NCBI RefSeq assembly: GCF_000349325.1
Contig: NC_020504.1
Span: 8,164,326 to 8,228,325, forward strand
DNA from: Streptomyces davaonensis JCM 4913
GTDB lineage: Bacteria; Actinomycetota; Actinomycetes; Streptomycetales; Streptomycetaceae
Length of the DNA: 64,000 bases
Reading direction: 5' to 3'
Numbering within the stretch: the stretch's first letter is position 1; every line of letters starts with the position of its first letter. The notes under the pieces are model-generated. The model made no database searches, was not told where the DNA came from, and worked only from the letters and a program-made list of their open reading frames with translations. Made by a program: the position numbers and the translations under genes. Shown here one piece after another: positions 5,962 through 17,455 of this stretch.

Positions 5962-6906
5962 TTATGAGACGTTCAGCGCACACCGGAACCCGGTGTGACC
6001 GCTGGAGCTGTCCGGGGTGTTGGTGCTGCGGGCCGCCACGCGGTAGCGGTTGCAGTAGGACGCGTGGCACATGTGGGAACCGCCGCGGATCACCTTCGCG
6101 GTGCCCTCGGCCGGGCCGGTCGGGTCGACGGACCCGCGATGCTCCGTGGTCCACCAGTCCCCGCACCACTCCCACACATTGCCCGAAGTGTTGTACAGGC
6201 CGAAGCCGTTGGGCTCGAAGGCGTCCACGGGCGCGGTGCCGCGATAGCCGTCTGCGGCGGTGTTCTTGGTGGGGAAGGTGCCCCGCCAGATGTTGCACCG
6301 GTGCTCGCCGTCGGGATCCAGTTCATCACCCCAGGGGTAGCGCCGCTGCTCCAGGCCGCCACGGGCCGCGTACTCCCACTCGGCCTCGGTGGGCAGCCGC
6401 TTGCCGGCCCAGGCCGCGTAGGCGGCCGCGTCGTACCAGGACACATGGACCACGGGATGGTCCCCGCGCCCCGCGAGATCGCTGCCCGGCCCCTCCGGCC
6501 GGTCCCAGGCGGCTCCCGTGACCGCGCACCACCAGGGCGTCCGCTCGGGCCGCGGGGCGCCGCGGCGCAGCGCGGCGGGCAGGAACCCGGCGAAGACGTA
6601 CGACCAGTCCAGGCGCTCGGCGTCGGTGACATGGCCCGTGTCGGCGACGAAGGCGGCGAACTCGTCGTTGCGCACCGCGCAGGCGTCGATCCGGAAGGGG
6701 GCCAGCCGCACCGCCCGCACCGGGCCCTCGCCGTCGTCGGGGAAGCCCTCGCTGTCCTCGGCGCCCATGAGGAACTCGCCGCCGGGGAGCAGGACCATGC
6801 CGTCGGTGGCAGCGGTGGGCGCCGTGTCGATCGGCTCGGGCCTGACCCGGCCACCCGTCTCTGACGCGGGCATGCAGCACGGGGCGGGGGACAGAGGCTC
6901 GGGCAT
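5962..6906 (-). CDS. Formylglycine-generating enzyme (aerobic sulfatase-maturing oxidase)
   Basis: A 314-residue FGE-sulfatase domain protein. The active-site segment is GGSHMCHASYCNRYRVAARS, with C280 and C285 in the Cx4C spacing that binds copper in true FGEs. NTPDSSSGHTGFRCALNV follows, closely matching human and mycobacterial FGE. The domain opens at about residue 36 with MVLLPGGEFLMG. FGE oxidises the Cys of a CxPxR motif in sulfatases to formylglycine. The ATG at 6906 has GAGGAAG upstream; the longer frame upstream is nonsense. No sulfatase gene lies in this window, so its client is elsewhere. Upstream on the same strand is a CoA-binding protein, downstream pobA. Confidence 0.9.
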   Translation of the reverse strand: MPEPLSPAPCCMPASETGGRVRPEPIDTAPTAATDGMVLLPGGEFLMGAEDSEGFPDDGEGPVRAVRLAPFRIDACAVRNDEFAAFVADTGHVTDAERLDWSYVFAGFLPAALRRGAPRPERTPWWCAVTGAAWDRPEGPGSDLAGRGDHPVVHVSWYDAAAYAAWAGKRLPTEAEWEYAARGGLEQRRYPWGDELDPDGEHRCNIWRGTFPTKNTAADGYRGTAPVDAFEPNGFGLYNTSGNVWEWCGDWWTTEHRGSVDPTGPAEGTAKVIRGGSHMCHASYCNRYRVAARSTNTPDSSSGHTGFRCALNVS

Positions 6907-7579: not shown

Positions 7580-8305
7580 GTGCTGCGCATCATCGACGCC
7601 CGAACGGGCGTGCCCGTCGACGCCGCCCCCGCTCGGCGCGGTCTCACCCGGGTCGAGGCCCACGCTCCCGGCTTCGACACCGGCGCCCTGCGCGTGCTCC
7701 TCGTCACCGACCTCCTCGTCCGCGCCCTGGAACTCGGCGGCACCCCGGTCTGGGCCGTCCTGCACGGCCACCGGGACCAGCCCGAGCTGCGGGCCGGCGC
7801 CGCCGCACTCGGCATCCGGCCCCTGGAGGACAGCCGGGAGGTCGGCCATGGGCTCGGTGAGAAACAGGTCATCCATGTCGTGGCCGAGGACGGCGTCAGC
7901 CCGGACGGCGTCCGCGTCGCCGTCGCCCCCGTGCACGCCGAGTCCCCGGCACCGCTCACCGGCGCCGACCCCGTCGCCCTGCGCCTGGCCCTCCTCACCC
8001 CGCCCCGCAGCCGGCCGGTACGGCTCGACACGGTCGCCCTGACCGAGGCCCACGACACCCTCGTCCGCTGGCGGCGCGCGGTCGCCGACTGGGCGCGGCA
8101 CCCCTCCCGGCCCATCCCCGACGGCGTGCGCACCGAACTGCGCGGCGCCTGGGAGGACGACCTCGACGTGCCCCGCGTCCTGCGCCTGCTCACCCGGGTC
8201 GAGACCGAACCGGACATCCCGGACGGCGCCCGCTTCGAGACCTACGCCTACGCCGACCGGCTGCTCGGCCTCGACCTCACCCGCGACCTGGGATCCCTGG
8301 CATGA
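7580..8305 (+). CDS. Cysteinyl-tRNA synthetase-like protein lacking catalytic motifs
   Basis: A 241-residue protein with no exact functional match that I recognise. The N-terminal half resembles part of the CysRS/MshC nucleotide-binding fold (RVLLVTDLLVRALELGGTPV), and the C-terminus resembles the CysRS helical domain: HDTLVRWRRAVADWARHPS, then AWEDDLDVPRVLRLLTRVE and the typical ending DRLLGLDLTRDLG. The HIGH and KMSKS-type motifs and the zinc cysteines of a real synthetase are missing, and the length is about half. It is probably a degenerate paralogue with a new role. The GTG start follows a purine-rich GCTCGGGGA. Its last four bases overlap the SixA-like phosphatase gene (ATGA). Confidence 0.6.
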   Translation: MLRIIDARTGVPVDAAPARRGLTRVEAHAPGFDTGALRVLLVTDLLVRALELGGTPVWAVLHGHRDQPELRAGAAALGIRPLEDSREVGHGLGEKQVIHVVAEDGVSPDGVRVAVAPVHAESPAPLTGADPVALRLALLTPPRSRPVRLDTVALTEAHDTLVRWRRAVADWARHPSRPIPDGVRTELRGAWEDDLDVPRVLRLLTRVETEPDIPDGARFETYAYADRLLGLDLTRDLGSLA

Positions 8306-8844
8306 TCGCCCGCGCGGGGACCGGCCCGCTGCGCCGCCTGATCGTCCTCAGGCACGCCAAGTCCGCCTGGCCCGAAGGCATCGCCGACCACCGCCGCCCG
8401 CTCGCCCCGCGCGGGCGACGCGACGCGCCCGCCGCCGGCCGCGCGCTGGCCGAGTCCGATCTGCTGCCCGACCTCGCCCTGTGCTCCACCGCCGTCCGTG
8501 CCCGCCAGACCTGGGAGCTGGCCTCCGCCGAGTGGGGCACCCCACCGCCCGTGCGCTACCTCCCGCGGCTCTACGCGGCCGAGGCCACCGAGTTGCTCGC
8601 CGCCGTGCATGAGGCGCCCGCCGAGGTGGAGACCCTGCTCCTGATCGGGCACAACCCCGGCCTGGAGGACCTGGTGACCGCGCTGGCCGGGGACAGCCTG
8701 GACGACGCCCTGGACCGGGTGCGGGAGAAGTTCCCCACCTCCGCCGTCGCCGTGCTCGCCTGGCGCGGCACGGCCTGGAGCGCGCTCGCCCCCGGCACCG
8801 CGCTGCTGACCTGGTTCACCGTGCCCCGCGGAAAGAAGCCCTGA
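8302..8844 (+). CDS. SixA-like histidine phosphatase
   Basis: A 180-residue branch-1 histidine phosphatase. The catalytic RHG-type motif is present as LIVLRHAKSAWP, the second arginine block is LCSTAVRARQTWE and the second catalytic His is in LLIGHNPGLEDLV. SixA proteins dephosphorylate phosphohistidine, for example on phosphotransferase or phosphorelay proteins. Overlap by four bases with the upstream CysRS-like gene indicates translational coupling, and the YigZ gene follows at 24 bp, so the three form one probable operon. Confidence 0.85.
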   Translation: MIARAGTGPLRRLIVLRHAKSAWPEGIADHRRPLAPRGRRDAPAAGRALAESDLLPDLALCSTAVRARQTWELASAEWGTPPPVRYLPRLYAAEATELLAAVHEAPAEVETLLLIGHNPGLEDLVTALAGDSLDDALDRVREKFPTSAVAVLAWRGTAWSALAPGTALLTWFTVPRGKKP

Positions 8845-8868
8845 CCGACCCTGGCATAGGCTGACCGG

Positions 8869-9495
8869 ATGCAGGACGAGTACCGCACAGTGGCCCGCGC
8901 GGGCGTGCACGAGACCGAGGTCAACCGCTCCCGCTTCCTGTGCGCGCTCGCCCCGGCGGCCACCGAGCAGGAGGCCCAGGACTTCATCGCCGGCATCCGC
9001 AAGGAGCACGCGGACGCCACCCACAACTGCTTCGCCTACGTCATCGGCGCCGACGCCGCGATCCAGAAGGCGAGCGACGACGGCGAACCCGGCGGCACCG
9101 CCGGCGTCCCCATGCTCCAGATGCTCCTGCGCCGTGACATGCGCTACGTCGTCGCCGTCGTCACCCGCTACTTCGGCGGCGTCAAACTCGGCGCGGGCGG
9201 CCTCATCCGGGCGTACGGCGGCTCCGTCGGCGAGGCCATCGACAACCTCGGCACGATTACCCGCCGTCGCTTCCGCCTGGCCACGGTCACCGTCGACCAC
9301 CAGCGCGCCGGCAAGATCCAGAACGACCTGCGCGCCACCGGCCGCGAGGTCCGCGACGTCCACTACGCCGAGGCCGTCACCATCGAGATCGGCCTGCCGG
9401 ACGCCGACGTGGACACCTTCCGCGCCTGGCTGGCCGACGCCACGGCCGGCACCGCCGGGTTCGCGCTGGGCGGGGAGGCGTACGGCGACGCCTGA
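8869..9495 (+). CDS. YigZ/IMPACT-family protein
   Basis: A 208-residue protein with the UPF0029/IMPACT domain in the first about 120 residues (EVNRSRFLCALAPAATEQEA, then ASDDGEPGGTAGVPMLQMLL and RYFGGVKLGAGGLIRAYGG) and a DUF1949 ferredoxin-like domain after it. The eukaryotic relative IMPACT modulates Gcn2; the bacterial role is not established, though YigZ has been linked to nucleic acid or translation-related functions. It is the last gene of the CysRS-like/SixA/YigZ group and converges on the radical SAM-peptide operon, with only 20 bp between stops. Confidence 0.85.
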   Translation: MQDEYRTVARAGVHETEVNRSRFLCALAPAATEQEAQDFIAGIRKEHADATHNCFAYVIGADAAIQKASDDGEPGGTAGVPMLQMLLRRDMRYVVAVVTRYFGGVKLGAGGLIRAYGGSVGEAIDNLGTITRRRFRLATVTVDHQRAGKIQNDLRATGREVRDVHYAEAVTIEIGLPDADVDTFRAWLADATAGTAGFALGGEAYGDA

Positions 9496-9515
9496 CGCGT
9501 GGGTTCGAGGGCGGA

Positions 9516-9698
9516 CTACCGCGCGGGCTCGTGCAGCGGGATGGGGTCGGAGCCGCCCGAATACAGGGTCACGGCGTGCGAGCAGGGCGCGTCGCCGCAG
9601 GGCTCGCAGGCATGGGCGTCCGGCAGGGGGAACAACTCCGCGCCCAGGGACCGCATGCGGGTCTCAACCGTGGGCTCTTCCGGCGACTCGTTCCGCAT
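9516..9698 (-). CDS. Candidate RiPP precursor peptide (60 residues) next to radical SAM/SPASM enzyme
   Basis: A short ORF directly downstream of, and overlapping by 35 bases, the radical SAM gene. The first about 20 residues (MRNESPEEPTVETRMRSLGA) are charged and leader-like. The rest (from ELFPLPDAHA, with CEPCGDAPC at 31-39) is rich in Pro, Gly, Ala, His and Cys, with C31, C34, C39, H29, H41, Y46 and H56 available for crosslinking. GGAAGGA lies about 10 bases upstream of this ATG; an alternative ATG at residue 15 starts just after the upstream stop. I do not recognise the family. Size, position and composition are those of a ribosomally made, modified peptide substrate; alternatively it is a chance ORF. 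Confidence 0.55.
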   Translation of the reverse strand: MRNESPEEPTVETRMRSLGAELFPLPDAHACEPCGDAPCSHAVTLYSGGSDPIPLHEPAR

Positions 9699-10833
9699 CG
9701 CGCATCAGTCCTTCCATCAGAAGTTTTCTGCCGTTGCGGCAGAACTGCGTCTCGGTTGCGTCCAGCCGACCTGTCTCGAAGTACTTGTTGGCGGCCTGCC
9801 CGCCACGGCAGTAGGCGAACAACTCGCACGCGGCGCGACAGGCGTCGACCCCGGCGAGGGCTTCGGCGACCCAAGGGGTCTGCTCAGCGCGGGCCAGGCA
9901 GCCGGCCAGCCCCAGCTCCCGTACGTCGCCGACGCTGAACCGGCCGTGGCGCGGGGAGGAGAACCCGGCGAGGTCCGGGCTGAGCGGCACCACCTGTCCG
10001 TCCCAGGTGACCATGGGCAGCGGATCGACCGGCAGACCGGCCCACCGCCCTGCCGCACCGGCCAGCTCCGCCCTGACGTACCGCCAGGCGTGCTCCAGAT
10101 CCCGCAGAGTCATGTCCCGGTCGGCGCGCCCTCGGGCGGCCAGCGCGGCCCAGAACTCCGCTATGTTCTCGGCGTCGTGCTCGTCGTGCGCGTCGTCGTG
10201 GAGGGTCTTGGCGTGCACGCCCTTGCGTTCCACCAGGTTCACGCCCAGAACGCGGCAGCCGAGCGCGGCGAACCACTCGTGCAGTTCGGCCGCCTTGCGC
10301 GCGGACGGGTCGGACACGACGGCGATGGCCCCGAACGCGATGCCGTGCCTCTTGAGCAACTCGACACCGCGCAGCACGCGTTCCGTTGCCTCTCGGCCCG
10401 AACGGTCCACACGGTCTCCGCCGGGGCCGGGACCGTCGACACTGACCGAGACCTCGATCCGCCGCTCCTCGAACAGCCGGCACCACACCTCGTCGATGAG
10501 TGAGGCATTGGTCTGCACGGCGTGCCGCACCGGGTGTTCACGACCCGGAGGGAACCGGTCGAGCAGCCCCCGTAAGCGGGACACCCCCGTGGTGAGCGGC
10601 TCCCCGCCGTGCCACAGCACGGTGACCGGGTGGTGTTCCGACCAGGAGGCAACCGTCGCCGCGACGGCATCCGCGACGTCGTCGGACATGAAGCGGGCGA
10701 GCCCTCGGGAAGGCAGATAGCAGTAGCGGCAGTCGAGGTTGCACAGTGGGGTCGGCTGGAGCAGAACGCGGGTACTGGTCCTCGCCAGTCGTGCCGCCGG
10801 GGTGGCGCGGGCCGGTGCCGACGGCCGTGTCAT
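9664..10833 (-). CDS. Radical SAM/SPASM peptide maturase
   Basis: A 389-residue protein. The radical SAM [4Fe-4S] motif CxxxCxxC is at C31, C35, C38 (CNLDCRYCYLPSRG), followed by VTVLWHGGEPL, typical of PqqE/anSME/FxsB-type peptide-modifying enzymes. A SPASM-like auxiliary cluster region at C332, C336, C342 and C365 is followed by only 24 residues. It resembles cyclophane-forming actinobacterial maturases (AmcB/FxsB type), though I cannot assign the exact family. Codon 87 is TTA, so translation should depend on the bldA tRNA. The start overlaps the NB-ARC gene stop (ATGA) and the small peptide gene overlaps its end, giving a three-gene operon. Confidence 0.85.
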   Translation of the reverse strand: MTRPSAPARATPAARLARTSTRVLLQPTPLCNLDCRYCYLPSRGLARFMSDDVADAVAATVASWSEHHPVTVLWHGGEPLTTGVSRLRGLLDRFPPGREHPVRHAVQTNASLIDEVWCRLFEERRIEVSVSVDGPGPGGDRVDRSGREATERVLRGVELLKRHGIAFGAIAVVSDPSARKAAELHEWFAALGCRVLGVNLVERKGVHAKTLHDDAHDEHDAENIAEFWAALAARGRADRDMTLRDLEHAWRYVRAELAGAAGRWAGLPVDPLPMVTWDGQVVPLSPDLAGFSSPRHGRFSVGDVRELGLAGCLARAEQTPWVAEALAGVDACRAACELFAYCRGGQAANKYFETGRLDATETQFCRNGRKLLMEGLMRDAERVAGRAHG

Positions 10834-13160
10834 CGGTCCCCCGCTTCCCCGGGCGGCCCTGCTTCCCTGGGTGGTTCTGCATTCCGGTGCCCGGCGACGG
10901 TGAGGAGCCTCATCGTCTCGTCCTCGCCGTAGCGGTCGGCGACGTCCCGGTAGAGGGACAGCGCCTGGAGATGCGCCGCGACGGCCTCGTCACGGCGGCC
11001 CGCGCGCCGCAGGGCGACTCCGAGGTCGTTGGCGGCGATCGCCTGGCCGTGCCGATGACCGACCTCGTGTTGTTCTCGTACGGCGATCCGGTGGGCCTCG
11101 ACGGCCTCGTCGAGGCGGCCCAGTGCGGACAGGGCGACACCGAAGTCGTTCCATGCCGTGGCGATACGCTCCCGGGCGCCCAGCTCCTCGAAGACCGCGC
11201 GGGCGGTGATGTGCGCGGACAGGGCTTCCTCGAGGCGCCCGGTCTCCCGGAAGGAGCGCCCCAGGTTGTTGGTCGCGGTGGCCTCGTGGAATCGATCGCC
11301 GACCGAGCGGAACATCTCGCGGGCCCGGGTGAGCGCGACGACCGACTCCTCGCAGCGGCCCATCTTGAACAGGGTGCGGCCGGCGTTGTTCCAGGTCGAC
11401 GCCTCGAGTCGGCGGTCGCCTGCCGCGTGCACCAGTTCGCGGGCGCGTTCGTGGGCCTCGAGCGACTCGTCGAATCTGCGCGCTTCGGTCAAGGAGACGC
11501 CCAGCATGTCCCAGGACTTTCCTTCTTGGAGGCCGTCCCCGCGCGACGCGTGGATCTCGCGGGCCCGCGTGTGCACCGCGACGGCCTCCTCGATTCTGCG
11601 GCTGTAGCGCAGGGCCAGTCCGAGGGCGTTCCATGCCCGGCCCGCTCCTAGGTCGTCCCCCAACGCGCGGGCCGCCTGGGTCGCGCAGCGATAGACGGAC
11701 ACGGCGTCGTCGAAGTAGCGCCGCCAGCTGAGATAGCCGTAGAGGCTCAGCGCCAGTCCCAGTCCGGCCTGCGCGTGAACGGGGTCGGCCGCCCACAGCG
11801 CGGCGGAGATGAGGCCGGTGCGCTCGTGGTCGAACCATCGCAGCGCGTCCGCGCGGTCGCTGAACCCGGGGGACGGGGCAGGATCGGGGCTGGACTGCAC
11901 GTGCCAGACCGCCGCCTCGACACGCTGCCGGTAGTGGTCCAGGAGCCGGGCCCGCGCTCGGGTGCCCTCGGCCCGCAGTGGCTCCTCGCGGGCCACCCGG
12001 TCCAGCGCGTAGGCGCGTACGAGGTCATGCATGGTCCAGTAGCCGCGCACGCTTCCGGGCGAAACCAGATGAGCGCGGACCAGCGCGTTCAGCTCCGGGC
12101 GCGGCAGCGCGTCGGCCCCGTGGAGCACGGTGATCGCCTCGTCGCTGGTCTCCGATCCCGGGGCGAGCGCCAGGAGCCGGAACAGGCGGGAGGGGCCCGG
12201 ACCGAGGCGGCGGTAGGACAGGTCGAAGGCGGCCCGCACTCCGCGTTCGCCGTCGTCGAGGTGGTCGATGAGCGTGGCGGAGTCGGCCAGCTCCGCGACC
12301 AGTTCCGTCACCGGCTTGCCCGGATCGGCGATGAGCAGGGCGGCGGCGATCTGCAGCGCCAGGGGCAGGTACCCGCACAGCGCGCACAGGTTCCCGGTCG
12401 CCTCGGGGTCATCCATGACGCGCGGGTCGGCGGGGGCGGCCGTGCGCAGAGCGGCGCTCAGCACCTCGCGGGCCACCTCGGGCCGGAGGATGTCGAGATG
12501 GAGCAGGTGGGCGCCGAGCTGGGGCATGGTGTCGCGGGAGGTGACGAGGACGCGGTGCGCGCCGTGGCCGGGCAGCAGCGGTCTGACCTGCCCGGGGTGC
12601 GAGGCGTTGTCCACCACGATCAGCACCGCGCCGCTCGTGCGGGCCCGTTCGGCCAGGACCGAGCGGTAGAGTCCGGCTCGTTCGTCCAGCGTCGTCGGCA
12701 CATGGGCGGCTGCCACGCCCAGGGCGCGCAGCAGGGCCTCCACCAGCTGTTCGGCTCCGGCGGGCGTCTCGTCGTAGCCGTGGCAGTCGACGAACAGCGC
12801 GCCCCCGGGGAACCAGCCGTGTTCCCGTGCCGTGTGAGCGGCTCGCACGGTCAGCGCGGTCTTGCCCACGCCGCCCATCCCCGCCACCGCGGTCACCGGG
12901 ACCGGGGCGTGGCCGCCGGGGTGGGGGGCCAGCGCCGCCAGCAGGGTGTCGAGTTCCTCCACGCGTCCGGTGAACTCGGCGGCGGTCGGCGGAAGCGCGT
13001 CCTCTACGTGTGGCATGGGGCCGTAGTGGTGATGATGTTCCACCTTCTTCCCGATGGCCTCGCCCCGGAACGTCCCGTTCCTGAAGTCGATCCGGTCCCC
13101 GGTGTGTGTGACCGCGGTGTGTGCGTCCCCCGCGTGTGTGTCCCCGCTCACACGGCCCAT
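10830..13160 (-). CDS. STAND NTPase: NB-ARC domain plus C-terminal TPR array (FxsT-like)
   Basis: A 776-residue protein. Residues 20-50 hold a motif (DRIDFRNGTFRGEAIG) and a HHHH stretch often seen ahead of STAND domains. Walker A is AGMGGVGKT at 93-101, Walker B is LIVVDNAS, and the RNBS/winged-helix region contains GYLPLALQIAAALL. At least seven 40-residue TPR-type repeats with WNxxG or TNNLG cores fill residues about 460-760 (for example AWNALGLALRYSRRIEEAVA). There is no helix-turn-helix at either end, unlike SARP regulators. The same architecture is known as FxsT in FxSxx-COOH radical SAM systems. ATGA overlap with the radical SAM gene couples them. The role may be sensing or signalling. 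Confidence 0.85.
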   Translation of the reverse strand: MGRVSGDTHAGDAHTAVTHTGDRIDFRNGTFRGEAIGKKVEHHHHYGPMPHVEDALPPTAAEFTGRVEELDTLLAALAPHPGGHAPVPVTAVAGMGGVGKTALTVRAAHTAREHGWFPGGALFVDCHGYDETPAGAEQLVEALLRALGVAAAHVPTTLDERAGLYRSVLAERARTSGAVLIVVDNASHPGQVRPLLPGHGAHRVLVTSRDTMPQLGAHLLHLDILRPEVAREVLSAALRTAAPADPRVMDDPEATGNLCALCGYLPLALQIAAALLIADPGKPVTELVAELADSATLIDHLDDGERGVRAAFDLSYRRLGPGPSRLFRLLALAPGSETSDEAITVLHGADALPRPELNALVRAHLVSPGSVRGYWTMHDLVRAYALDRVAREEPLRAEGTRARARLLDHYRQRVEAAVWHVQSSPDPAPSPGFSDRADALRWFDHERTGLISAALWAADPVHAQAGLGLALSLYGYLSWRRYFDDAVSVYRCATQAARALGDDLGAGRAWNALGLALRYSRRIEEAVAVHTRAREIHASRGDGLQEGKSWDMLGVSLTEARRFDESLEAHERARELVHAAGDRRLEASTWNNAGRTLFKMGRCEESVVALTRAREMFRSVGDRFHEATATNNLGRSFRETGRLEEALSAHITARAVFEELGARERIATAWNDFGVALSALGRLDEAVEAHRIAVREQHEVGHRHGQAIAANDLGVALRRAGRRDEAVAAHLQALSLYRDVADRYGEDETMRLLTVAGHRNAEPPREAGPPGEAGDR

Positions 13161-13301
13161 CTTGCCCTGAAAGCAAGGCTTCCGGCAGAGAGGCAATCGA
13201 CAATGAATCCGGCAAAACTGGCGTTCGTAAGGCCTGTCATCGCGGGCGATACGGGAGTAACCGCCCGTGATGTCAGACCCGGCCGTTAGTCTTCGGGGAT
13301 C
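13161..13301. promoter_or_regulatory. Divergent promoter region of the STAND/radical SAM operon and sbcDC, with PafBC-like promoter for sbcD
   Basis: On the plus strand, ATGTCAGAC (13270-13278), eight bases, then TAGTCT (13287-13292) lies nine bases from the sbcD ATG. The spacing and -10 agree with the DNA-damage promoter motif TTGTCRGTG-N8-TANNNT, but the upstream element has three mismatches. With a normal initiation distance the mRNA would be leaderless or nearly so. For the minus-strand operon I see AGGG near the ATG but no confident promoter. Confidence 0.45.
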
Positions 13302-14465
13302 ATGAGGCTCCTGCACACTTCCGACTGGCACCTGGGCCGGGCGTTCCACCGCGTGAACATGCTCGCCGCCCAGGCCGAGTTCATCCGTCACCTCGTCGGC
13401 ATCGTGCGCGAGCGCGACGTGGACGCGGTGGTGGTGTCGGGAGACGTGTACGACCGCGCGGTGCCGCCGCTCGCCGCCGTCGAGCTGTTCGACGACGCCC
13501 TGCACAGCCTCGCCGGGCTGGGCGTGCCCACCGTGATGATCTCCGGGAACCACGACTCCGCCCGGCGGCTCGGCGTCGGCGCCGGGCTCATCGACCGCGC
13601 GGGCATCCATCTGCGGACCGAGCCGTCGGCGTGCGGGACCCCGGTGATCCTGTCCGACGCCCATGGCGAGGTGGCCTTCTACGGTCTGCCGTATCTCGAA
13701 CCGGCCCTGGTGAAGGACGAGTTCGGGGTGGAGAAGGCCGGGCACGAGGCGGTGCTCGCCGCCGCCATGGACCGAGTACGCGCCGACCTCGCCGCACGCG
13801 CGCGGGGGACGCGTTCCGTCGTCCTCGCCCATGCCTTCGTCACCGGCGGCGAGGCCAGCGACAGCGAGCGGGACATCACCGTCGGCGGCGTCGCCGCGGT
13901 CCCGGCCGGGGTCTTCGACGGCGTCGACTACACGGCCCTCGGGCATCTGCACGGCAGCCAGACCATCACCGAGCGCGTGCGCTACTCCGGCTCCCCGCTG
14001 GCGTACTCCTTCTCGGAGGCCGACCACCGCAAGAGCATGTGGCTGGTCGATCTGGACGCCGACGGTGCCGTGACCGCCGAGCGGATCGACTGCCCCGCCC
14101 CGCGCGCGCTCGCCCGGATCCGCGGGCCGCTGGAGGAACTCCTCGCCGACCCCGCCCTCGCCCGGCACGAGGACGCCTGGGTCGAGGCCACCCTCACCGA
14201 CACGGTCCGCCCCGCCGAACCCATGGCCCGGATCGGCGAGCGCTTCCCGCACACCCTGAGCCTCGTCTTCGACCCGGACCGGGCCCCCGACGACCCGGAC
14301 GTGTCCTACGCGCGGCGCCTGGCCGGGCGCGGCGACCAGCAGATCGCCGAGGACTTCGTCGCCCATGTCCGGGGCGCCGGGCCGGACGAGGACGAGCAGA
14401 CCGTGCTCCGGGACGCCTTCGACGCGGTCCGCGCGGACGCGGTGGTGCGGGAGGTGGCGCGGTGA
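13302..14465 (+). CDS. sbcD: Exonuclease SbcCD, nuclease subunit SbcD
   Basis: A 387-residue calcineurin-like metallophosphoesterase. All five phosphoesterase blocks are visible: HTSDWHLG at residues 5-12, SGDVYDRAVPP, SGNHDSARRL, a LAHAFVTGG block and GHLHGSQ. The C-terminal capping domain interacts with SbcC. The complex cleaves hairpins and protein-blocked DNA ends and processes double-strand breaks. The stop overlaps the sbcC GTG by four bases, so the subunits are translationally coupled. See the upstream region for a possible DNA damage-type promoter. Confidence 0.95.
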   Translation: MRLLHTSDWHLGRAFHRVNMLAAQAEFIRHLVGIVRERDVDAVVVSGDVYDRAVPPLAAVELFDDALHSLAGLGVPTVMISGNHDSARRLGVGAGLIDRAGIHLRTEPSACGTPVILSDAHGEVAFYGLPYLEPALVKDEFGVEKAGHEAVLAAAMDRVRADLAARARGTRSVVLAHAFVTGGEASDSERDITVGGVAAVPAGVFDGVDYTALGHLHGSQTITERVRYSGSPLAYSFSEADHRKSMWLVDLDADGAVTAERIDCPAPRALARIRGPLEELLADPALARHEDAWVEATLTDTVRPAEPMARIGERFPHTLSLVFDPDRAPDDPDVSYARRLAGRGDQQIAEDFVAHVRGAGPDEDEQTVLRDAFDAVRADAVVREVAR

Positions 14466-17455
14466 GGCTGCACCGACTCGACATCACGGCCTTCGGGCCC
14501 TTCGGGGGCTCCCAGAGCGTCGACTTCGACGAGCTGTCGGCAGCGGGACTGTTCCTGCTGCACGGCCCCACCGGCGCCGGGAAGACCTCCGTCCTCGACG
14601 CCGTCTGCTACGCGCTGTACGGCGCCGTGCCCGGCGCCCGGCAGTCCGGCCAGGGTCTCGCGCTGCGCAGTGACCACGCGGCACTCGGCACGCGCACCGA
14701 GATCCGCCTGGAACTGACCGTCGCCGGACGCCGGTTGGAGGTCACCCGGCAGCCGCCCTGGGAGCGCCCGAAGAAGCGGGGTTCCGGCACGACCCTGGAC
14801 AAGGCGCAGAGCTGGCTGCGCGAGTACGACGCCGCGACCGGCACCTGGAAGGACCTCAGCCGTTCCCACCAGGAGATCGGCGAGGAGATCACCCAGCTGC
14901 TCGGGATGAGCCGCGAACAGTTCTGCCAGGTAGTCCTGTTGCCCCAGGGCGACTTCGCGCGCTTCCTGCGCGCCGACGCCGAGGCGCGCGGCCGGCTGCT
15001 GGGGCGGCTCTTCGACACCCACCGCTTCGCCGAGGTGGAGAAGCGGCTCGCCGAGCGCCGCCGCGCGGCCGAGGCCGAGGTGCGCGAGGGCGACGCCGCG
15101 CTGCTGGCCGACGCGCACCGCATGCAGCAGGCGGCTGACGGCGCCATGGAGCTGCCCGAGCTGACACCGGGCGAACCGGGGCTCGCTGACGCCGTGTTGA
15201 CCGCCGCAGCCGTGGCCCGCAGCTCCGCGCGCGAGGAACTCACTGTCGCCCACTGCCGCCTCGCCACGGCCGAGTCCGCTCAGGCCGCCGCCGAGCGCGC
15301 CCTGGGCGACGTACGCGAACTCGCCCGGCTGCAACGAAGGTTCGCCGAGGCGCGGGAGCGGGCCGGGGTGCTTCAGGAGCGGGCGGGCGGTCACCGGGAG
15401 GCGCAGGCGCGCATGGAGCGGGCCCGCAAGGCCGAGGCGGTGGCCCCCGCGCTGGAGCTGCGGGACGCCGCCGACGCCGAGCACCGGCGGGCCGCGATCG
15501 CCCGAGACCGCGCGGGCGCGTTGTTGCCGGACACCTTCGCCGACGCGGGTGCCGCAGGGCTCGCGGCCGCCGCGCGCCGGGCCGCCGAGGAGCTGGGTGG
15601 CCTGGAGTCGGCCCGCCGCGCGGAGCAGCGGCTGGCCGAACTCGTCGAGGAGCGTGCCGGTCTCGACCGCCAGGAGCGCGCCGACGAGGACGTCCTTGAG
15701 GAGGCCGGGGCATGGCTCGCCGGCTGGGAGGCCACGCGCGCGGGGCTCCAGTCCCGGATCGACACCGCCCAGGAGGCCGCCACCCGCGCCGAACAGCTCT
15801 CCGTGCAGCGGGAGCCCGCCGCCAAGCGGCTCAAGGCGGCCAGATTGCGGGACCAGTTGGCCGGCGACACCGACACGGCGGCGGACCGGGCCCGGCGTGC
15901 CCAGGAGGAGGCGCTGACGGCCAAGGCGCACTGGCTGGAGGTCAAGGAACGCCGCCTGAACGGCATCGCGGCCGAACTCGCGGCCCAGCTGACCGCCGGT
16001 GAACCCTGCGCCGTCTGTGGTGCCACCGAGCACCCGGCGCCCGCGCGCAAGGACGCCGGGCACGTCGACCGCGAAGTCGAGGAGCAGGCCCTCGCCGCCT
16101 ACCAGACGGCGGAGGAGCGCCAGGCCGAGCAGGAGCGGCGCCTGGGCGTCGTACGCGAGGCGCTGGCCGCCGCCACCGCCGAGGCCGGGGACACCCCGAC
16201 CGGACAACTCGCCGACGATGTCACTGAGTTGGAGCGGGAGTTCGCGCAGGCCCGCCGGGAGGCTTCCGCGCTGCACCCCGCGCACGAGGAACTGCGCCGC
16301 GCCGAGCAGGAGCAGGAGCGGCGCGCCATGGCCCGTAGGCAGGCGGAGGTCAGAAGCGCCGCCCGGGTCGGCCACCGCGACCAGCTGGACCGCGAACGGG
16401 CCGCACTGGAAGGGGAGTTGGCCGAGGCGCGCGGCGTCCTGGACAGTGTGGCCGCCCGCTCCGCCCAACTGGAACGCCAGGTCGCGCTGCTCACCGACGC
16501 CGCCGACAGCGCCCGCGCCGCGGAGGACAGCGCCCAGCGGCTCAAGGACGCCGACGCGCGCCTCGCCGACGCCGCGTTCCGCGCCGGGTTCGACACTCCG
16601 CAGGCCGCCGCCGAGGCCCTGCTCGACGACACCGCCCACCGCGAACTCCAACGGCGCCTGGACGCCTGGCAGTCCGAGGAAGCCGCCGTACGCGCCGTCC
16701 TCGTCGAGGCCGACACCGCGGCCGCCGCCCAGCGCCCGTCCGCCGACCTCGCGGCGGCGGAACAGGCCGCCGCCGAGGCGGGCCGACGCCTGCGCGACAC
16801 CGCCTCCGCGCGGGACGCCGCCGCCCGGCGCTGCACCGAACTCGACCGCCTCTCCGCCCGCGCGACACAAGGCGTACGACGGCTCGCGCCGCTGCGCACC
16901 CACTACGACCGGGTGGCCCGGCTCGCCGCGCTCACGGCGGGCACCTCCGCGGACAACGAGCGCAAGATGCGCCTGGAGTCCTACGTCCTGGCCGCCCGCC
17001 TGGAACAGGTCGCCGCCGCCGCGACCGTGCGGCTGCGCCGGATGTCGTCCGGCCGCTACACCCTCGTCCACTCCGACGACCGCGCCGGACGCGGCCGCAG
17101 CGGCCTCGGACTGCATGTCGTGGACGCCTGGACCGGACGGGAGCGGGACACGGCGACGCTGTCCGGCGGCGAGACCTTCTTCGCCTCCCTCGCCCTGGCC
17201 CTCGGGCTCGCGGATGTCGTCACCGACGAGGCGGGCGGGGTGCGTCTCGACACCCTCTTCATCGACGAGGGCTTCGGCAGCCTCGACGACCAGACCCTCG
17301 ACGAGGTCCTCGACGTCCTCGACTCCCTGCGCGAGCGGGACCGCAGCGTGGGCATCGTGAGCCATGTCGCCGATCTGCGGCGCCGGATCCACGCCCAGCT
17401 GGAGGTCGTGAAGGGGCGCTCGGGGTCGACGCTGCGGCAGCGGGGCGGCGGCTGA
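14462..17455 (+). CDS. sbcC: Exonuclease SbcCD, ATPase subunit SbcC
   Basis: A 997-residue SMC-like ATPase. It starts MRLHRLDITAFGPFGG with Walker A GPTGAGKTS at about residue 38, the Q-loop region QVVLLPQGDFARFL, two long Ala/Glu/Arg-rich coiled-coil arms, and the zinc-hook CAVC at about residues 516-519, followed by ATEHP. The ABC signature TLSGGETFFASLALAL and Walker B LDTLFIDEGFGSLD are near the end. The GTG start lies inside the GTGA that also stops sbcD. Zinc-hook dimerisation bridges DNA ends while ATP controls the SbcD nuclease. Confidence 0.95.
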   Translation: MRLHRLDITAFGPFGGSQSVDFDELSAAGLFLLHGPTGAGKTSVLDAVCYALYGAVPGARQSGQGLALRSDHAALGTRTEIRLELTVAGRRLEVTRQPPWERPKKRGSGTTLDKAQSWLREYDAATGTWKDLSRSHQEIGEEITQLLGMSREQFCQVVLLPQGDFARFLRADAEARGRLLGRLFDTHRFAEVEKRLAERRRAAEAEVREGDAALLADAHRMQQAADGAMELPELTPGEPGLADAVLTAAAVARSSAREELTVAHCRLATAESAQAAAERALGDVRELARLQRRFAEARERAGVLQERAGGHREAQARMERARKAEAVAPALELRDAADAEHRRAAIARDRAGALLPDTFADAGAAGLAAAARRAAEELGGLESARRAEQRLAELVEERAGLDRQERADEDVLEEAGAWLAGWEATRAGLQSRIDTAQEAATRAEQLSVQREPAAKRLKAARLRDQLAGDTDTAADRARRAQEEALTAKAHWLEVKERRLNGIAAELAAQLTAGEPCAVCGATEHPAPARKDAGHVDREVEEQALAAYQTAEERQAEQERRLGVVREALAAATAEAGDTPTGQLADDVTELEREFAQARREASALHPAHEELRRAEQEQERRAMARRQAEVRSAARVGHRDQLDRERAALEGELAEARGVLDSVAARSAQLERQVALLTDAADSARAAEDSAQRLKDADARLADAAFRAGFDTPQAAAEALLDDTAHRELQRRLDAWQSEEAAVRAVLVEADTAAAAQRPSADLAAAEQAAAEAGRRLRDTASARDAAARRCTELDRLSARATQGVRRLAPLRTHYDRVARLAALTAGTSADNERKMRLESYVLAARLEQVAAAATVRLRRMSSGRYTLVHSDDRAGRGRSGLGLHVVDAWTGRERDTATLSGGETFFASLALALGLADVVTDEAGGVRLDTLFIDEGFGSLDDQTLDEVLDVLDSLRERDRSVGIVSHVADLRRRIHAQLEVVKGRSGSTLRQRGGG

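Follow-up and report, generated by a model that had tools for sequence, protein, structure and literature searches.

In known three-residue cyclophanes an aromatic residue i is joined to the beta-carbon of residue i+2. OscB is described as doing so from Trp or Phe to Asn or Asp at +2, and HaaB as linking the C2 of His with the beta-carbon of an Ala at +2 (PMC11002830). FxSxx peptides with radical S-adenosylmethionine (SAM)/SPASM enzymes are reported from actinobacterial conflict systems (PMC7159879). The locus analysed here lies in a stretch of 64,000 nucleotides (the window) from Streptomyces davaonensis JCM 4913 (contig NC_020504.1, positions 8,164,326 to 8,228,325), a genome of 9.56 Mb; the named relatives that come closest at this locus are Streptomyces. 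It carries a cassette of three genes, for a STAND-type protein, a radical SAM enzyme and a peptide of 60 residues. The cassette is likely to be a unit for an AmcB-type ribosomally synthesised and post-translationally modified peptide (RiPP), in which the enzyme would modify the peptide core and the STAND protein would sense the mature peptide or gate its use. The peptide is best read as belonging to a precursor class that is new among AmcB-type RiPPs.

The three minus-strand genes are coupled as the sequence-only reading had proposed (Table 1), and both the 35-base overlap of enzyme and peptide genes and the four-base overlap in which the stop codon of the STAND gene and the start of the enzyme gene share ATGA (10830-10833) were confirmed. 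The start of the STAND gene is probably the GTG at 13151-13149, since the residues VSGD/VSRD encoded there are kept at 8/8 loci of the class and the upstream ATG is not conserved. Transcription would proceed from the STAND gene through the maturase gene to the precursor gene. No promoter or terminator was found in a scan of 9400-13400, which is little informative for Streptomyces, and no Rfam family matched at the gathering threshold across 8000-14500.

Table 1. Features of the cassette and its surroundings (positions are those of the window)
Feature	Position	Strand	Basis or remark
Candidate precursor peptide gene, 60 residues	9516..9698	minus	Helix-forming N-terminus, then core CxxCGxxxCxHxxxLYxGx[ST][DE]
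Peptide core, residues 31-51	9546..9608	minus	Invariant residues, pN/pS 0.45
35 bases shared by the enzyme gene (3' end) and the peptide gene (5' end)	9664..9698	minus	Present at 8 loci
Radical SAM/SPASM peptide maturase, AmcB family, 389 residues	9664..10833	minus	NF041718, Cys layout, model
STAND-type NB-ARC/AAA-TPR gene	10830..13151 (likely GTG start; longest reading from ATG 13160)	minus	Pfam; start from relatives
Protein with FGE-sulfatase (formylglycine-generating) domain	5962-6873	minus	279 bits

A contig scan of genomes returned eight loci. In six of them the enzyme is 73-89% identical, and all six have the peptide at the same place; the other two are more distant (Nannocystis, Nonomuraea) and have other partners beside the enzyme. 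With the window and one further locus from a genome of the genus Streptomyces (G459), eight distinct peptides were obtained, which sample the class at eight loci from one genus; the peptides of loci L029 and L004 are identical to those of L021 and L024 and were not counted. At all eight loci the peptide open reading frame (ORF) overlaps the enzyme gene at the same place. Because of this recurrence, a G+C content at third codon positions of 0.96 over the 48 non-overlapping codons and the constraint on the core in its own frame, the peptide gene cannot be attributed to a chance ORF. The ratio of nonsynonymous to synonymous differences (pN/pS) in the 21-codon core, pooled over pairs of seven peptides (L022 omitted; L021 and L022 are close copies), is 0.45 in frame and 1.15 or 1.76 when the frame is shifted, and variable columns over all eight peptides number 11, 9 and 18 by codon position. 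The peptide is thus encoded by a real gene under purifying selection in its own frame only. Neither a missing ORF nor a broken frame, which the sequence-only reading had named as contrary findings, was seen in the eight closest loci.

Thirteen residues (M1, R2, E4, P6, R14, R16, C31, C34, G35, C39, L45, Y46 and G48) are invariant in the eight peptides, although the conservation of M1, R2, E4 and P6, which lie within the enzyme-gene overlap, is not independent. The residues that had been singled out beforehand, H29, C31, C34, C39, H41, Y46 and H56, are all present in the window peptide; only the three Cys and Y46 proved invariant, H41 being found in 7/8 peptides (Arg in L026) and H29 and H56 not being conserved. 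The core of the class reads CxxCGxxxCx(H)...LYxGx[ST][DE], and L023 has a partial repeat of it with His in place of Tyr (TLYPGGTE, TLHSGDTT). Structure prediction gave a single helix at residues 11-22 and no structure for the remainder (predicted local distance difference test, pLDDT, 63.5; predicted template modelling score 0.23). The window peptide matched no NCBIfam or Pfam family, and three of its relatives matched no NCBIfam family, including the AmcA precursor model NF041721. As a control for that model, the peptide of loci L014/L020, with repeated FDN/WDN motifs, matched it with 67 bits (cut-off 40).

By its sequence the window enzyme is a member of the AmcB family, which NCBIfam names as cyclophane-forming peptide maturases. 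It reached 516.4 bits against the AmcB model NF041718 (NCBIfam, cut-off 425). The second-best model, that of the GrrM/OscB triceptide maturases (TIGR04261), gave 208.8 bits and stayed below its cut-off of 310, and the window peptide lacks the aromatic-x-Asn/Asp target of OscB. Besides C31/C35/C38 (CX3CX2C), the enzyme has C332, C336, C342 and C365 in the SPASM-like Cx3Cx5Cx22C spacing that the sequence-only reading had noted. An AlphaFold2 model built from a 20-row alignment (pLDDT 83.5) had anSME and ChlB as its best matches among solved structures, and a sequence-profile search also put these two first; the ChlB structure includes the leader of its precursor. Nine further enzymes pass the AmcB cut-off (446-520 bits), eight of which adjoin other precursor types. 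The proposal of an undescribed RiPP system therefore needs to be divided: a RiPP-like triad with a peptide outside known families is well supported, but the enzyme family is already catalogued. No published description of the cassette was recognised in literature searches, whose coverage left out most subscription journals.

A tree of 30 enzymes groups those of the window class, eight in number, as a single clade (support 100/100). All precursor types can be placed on this tree with seven changes, the least possible number, versus 17.6 in shuffles, and the FDN/WDN type alone needs two; long branches make the deep joins unsure, and L013, one of the FDN/WDN rows, had its label confirmed only after the tree was made. 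Precursor type follows enzyme clade. The sister class consists of three members with PWEG or DWEG cores (support 85/89, below the star threshold), and its gene order is the same, with the STAND gene directly upstream, then the enzyme gene and a small ORF. For the single pair compared, the STAND proteins of the two classes share 49% identity over 673 residues, the sister protein having a longer N-terminal part that did not align. Since the sister class also has this STAND gene upstream, the triad probably predates the split of the two classes, after which the core and the STAND N-terminus would have changed.

AmcA-type precursors resemble the window peptide in being small and encoded directly downstream of the enzyme, but their cores carry aromatic-Asp-Asn repeats (FDN/WDN), which the window clade does not have, and the enzymes at FDN/WDN loci are 39-46% identical to that of the window. 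A pentapeptide-repeat protein of about 222-226 residues (Pfam) follows the FDN/WDN precursor at L009:2937-3611, L012:2866-3534 and L014:2863-3543, in contrast to the window cassette, which has none. Similar ORFs were seen after the precursor at L010, L011, L015, L016, L017 and L020. Pentapeptide-repeat proteins can protect gyrase, and those of the FDN/WDN loci may serve for self-immunity. The N-terminal cysteine motif varies among enzymes of these loci: L009, L010 and L011 have a non-standard C-x4-C-x2-C (CLPMDCTYC), L014, L015, L017 and L020 a non-standard C-x3-C-x3-C (e.g. CNMDCAAYC), and the enzymes of L012, L013, L016 and L019 keep the standard C-x3-C-x2-C.

Further precursor types were observed beside AmcB-family enzymes. 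The loci L056 (4727-4876), L057 (5116-5271), L028 and L033 encode peptides of 49-54 residues with a shared ERI-type N-terminus and an IFGWAY, IFGWEY or IFGWAS core; three that were tested had no NCBIfam match, and they make up another precursor class. At L058 and L059, where one internal TGA was reported in the L059 enzyme match, the enzymes adjoin peptides of 70-77 residues that end in FENIPTFYNWNNRPR and contain several aromatic-x-Asn triplets. In Nannocystis poenicansa (L027:7064-9175), a 703-residue protein overlaps the enzyme gene; it starts with a leader-like LSERV followed soon by an aromatic-rich sequence, and for this reason the whole protein may be the substrate.

The STAND protein matched the Pfam families TPR and AAA_16 above their cut-offs, with NB-ARC, at 18.5 bits, falling short of its cut-off of 23.5. 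All NCBIfam matches were below cut-off as well, i.e. AfsR (315/1430 bits), HaaT (312/1125) and the FxSxx TPR protein (110/300). A search for known anti-phage systems with PADLOC 2.0.0 gave only two matches, one generic (TPR, 32.6 bits) and one weak (viperin, 24.8 bits). The Haa systems likewise combine a HaaT-like TPR protein, a radical SAM enzyme and a small peptide with a His-containing core. At the Haa loci L045 and L046, where HaaA was called, the order is however HaaT, HaaA, enzyme and acetyltransferase, and the Haa enzyme is about 36% identical to the window enzyme over part of its length. Membership in this system was rejected on the HaaT score and because a His-Ala-Ala core occurs in one of the eight peptides only (L025).

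Small peptides encoded with a STAND/TPR protein and a SPASM radical SAM enzyme also occur in the FxSxx-COOH systems (FxsA/FxsB/FxsT), and FxSxx peptides have a described precedent in actinobacterial conflict systems (PMC7159879). The FxsT/FxsB comparison made by the sequence-only reading holds as a resemblance and fails as a membership: the enzyme scored 83.5 bits against FxsB (cut-off 370), the TPR protein was also far below its cut-off, none of the eight peptides ends in FxSxx, as had been noted for the window peptide, and no called peptidase is shared. With three tested features (enzyme/TPR cut-offs, C-terminus and peptidase) failing, it is very improbable that the cassette belongs to the FxSxx-COOH conflict systems.

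What the enzyme would do to the core has to be judged from the conserved residues. Y46 is the sole invariant aromatic residue and has Gly at +2 in 8/8 peptides; the three-residue cyclophane rule does not hold there. An ordinary triceptide, in which a three-residue cyclophane is formed from H41 or F23 and the Tyr and Cys are bystanders, would follow the HaaB precedent (PMC11002830). At +2 of H41, 6/8 peptides have a residue with a beta-carbon (His-Ala-Val in the window, His-Ala-Ala in L025), and 6/8 have one at +2 of F23 or its counterpart. This explanation is nevertheless unlikely, as L024 has His-Pro-Gly, L026 has Arg for His and both L025 and L026 lack the Phe, while the invariant residues are Cys and Tyr and the enzyme is of AmcB type rather than FxsB/HaaB type. 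The Cys/His cluster C-x2-C-x4-C-x-H, with three Cys in 8/8 and the His in 7/8 peptides within eleven residues, could alternatively form a metal site in a peptide that is mainly metal-binding or redox-active, enzymatic change being secondary. We regard this as quite improbable, given that no metal-related gene among those called is common to the eight loci, that L026 lacks the His and that the peptide model (pLDDT 63.5) has no ordered knuckle, a model of this kind being weak evidence.

In the favoured explanation, that of an AmcB-type RiPP unit, the enzyme would recognise the N-terminal helix of the peptide and probably modifies the core by radical chemistry. The invariant Tyr of LYxGx[ST][DE] would be the favoured site, and the three invariant Cys and the nearly invariant His could take part or bind metal. 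Because the cassette has no accompanying exporter or peptidase, the STAND protein would most likely sense the mature peptide or gate its use as an intracellular effector. Several points weigh against this explanation. That the peptide is a substrate modified by the enzyme, which bond is made, and that the STAND protein acts as sensor or effector gate are steps that we infer, the last by analogy. The aromatic-x-Asn/Asp of AmcA is absent from the core, so the AmcA activity cannot simply be carried over, and pN/pS of the whole non-overlapping part of the peptide gene is only moderate (0.33 to 0.99 by pair). Other AmcB-linked precursors have a leader that, judged by eye, reads L[AST][DEQ]R[IV] or VADRV, and a profile of it was not significant in the window class (p=0.19 for five of the eight peptides; p = 0.04 to 0.62 for single peptides). 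A shared leader in its strict pattern was rejected, as it occurs in 4/8 peptides of the class, that of the window not among them.

A more specific version, which we put forward tentatively, holds that the sister and window clades have left three-residue chemistry, that their aromatic-x-Gly-x-[ST]-[DE] core receives a bond foreign to the relatives, and that the product is an intracellular modified peptide serving as ligand or effector of the STAND protein. Such a bond may be an aryl link to the Gly alpha-carbon, a larger ring to Ser/Thr or Asp/Glu, or a link involving Cys. The motif is present in 8/8 peptides of the window class, in 2/3 of the sister class and in 0/7 other precursors tested; it was picked after inspection and serves as a lead only, and the two sister peptides are near copies. 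The third sister peptide (L006) retains Trp-Glu-Gly, together with Trp-Glu-Pro and Trp-Glu-Glu.

Flanking genes were called over 9-14 kb per locus with a codon-usage script that accepts ORFs of at least 50 residues, which may have overlooked the smallest genes. Among the genes called, all eight loci have in common the STAND and enzyme genes only, to which the peptide ORF is added; no called peptidase or exporter is common to them, in agreement with the earlier remark that none is adjacent in the window. The eight loci represent five genomic contexts: the window, L021, L022 and L023 also share a yigZ-side flank, and the flanking genes of L024, L025, L026 and L051 are unmatched at any other cassette locus. 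In 9/19 loci of relatives, sbcD starts about 0.1-0.9 kb downstream of yigZ, too close for the 3.6 kb cassette; the other ten, including that of the window, were uninformative, with no sbcD start within the stretch, one being ended by the contig. One of these nine loci belongs to G016, a genome that has its cassette on another contig. Enzymes more than 80% identical were found in 4/392 genomes of the genus, that of the window included, and the class is therefore uncommon. The peptide profile gave strong matches in 2/248 genomes only, both adjoining the enzyme gene, and we attribute six weak matches elsewhere (E 0.004 to 0.0073) to chance. In a plasmid collection, only enzymes below 60% identity were found.

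Outside the cassette, the FGE-sulfatase gene of the window is unmatched by any gene called at the seven remaining loci. A 135-residue minus-strand ORF at 2757-3164 matches an integrase core (rve_3) and is probably part of an insertion sequence.

Enzymes above the AmcB cut-off adjoin very different precursor cores, and Y46 is unable to carry the three-residue bond, for which reasons the AmcB family name probably over-predicts chemistry. Two genes suffice for a test of the chemistry of this cassette, and the eight peptides are a natural set of test substrates ready for use, which vary at H41 and in one case (L023) have a repeated core. As a STAND switch is co-inherited with a peptide maturase, the question whether modified peptides elicit a response from bacterial STAND proteins can be put to the test as well, and the product of the cassette, made beside a sensor-like protein, may be a modified peptide of a new kind.

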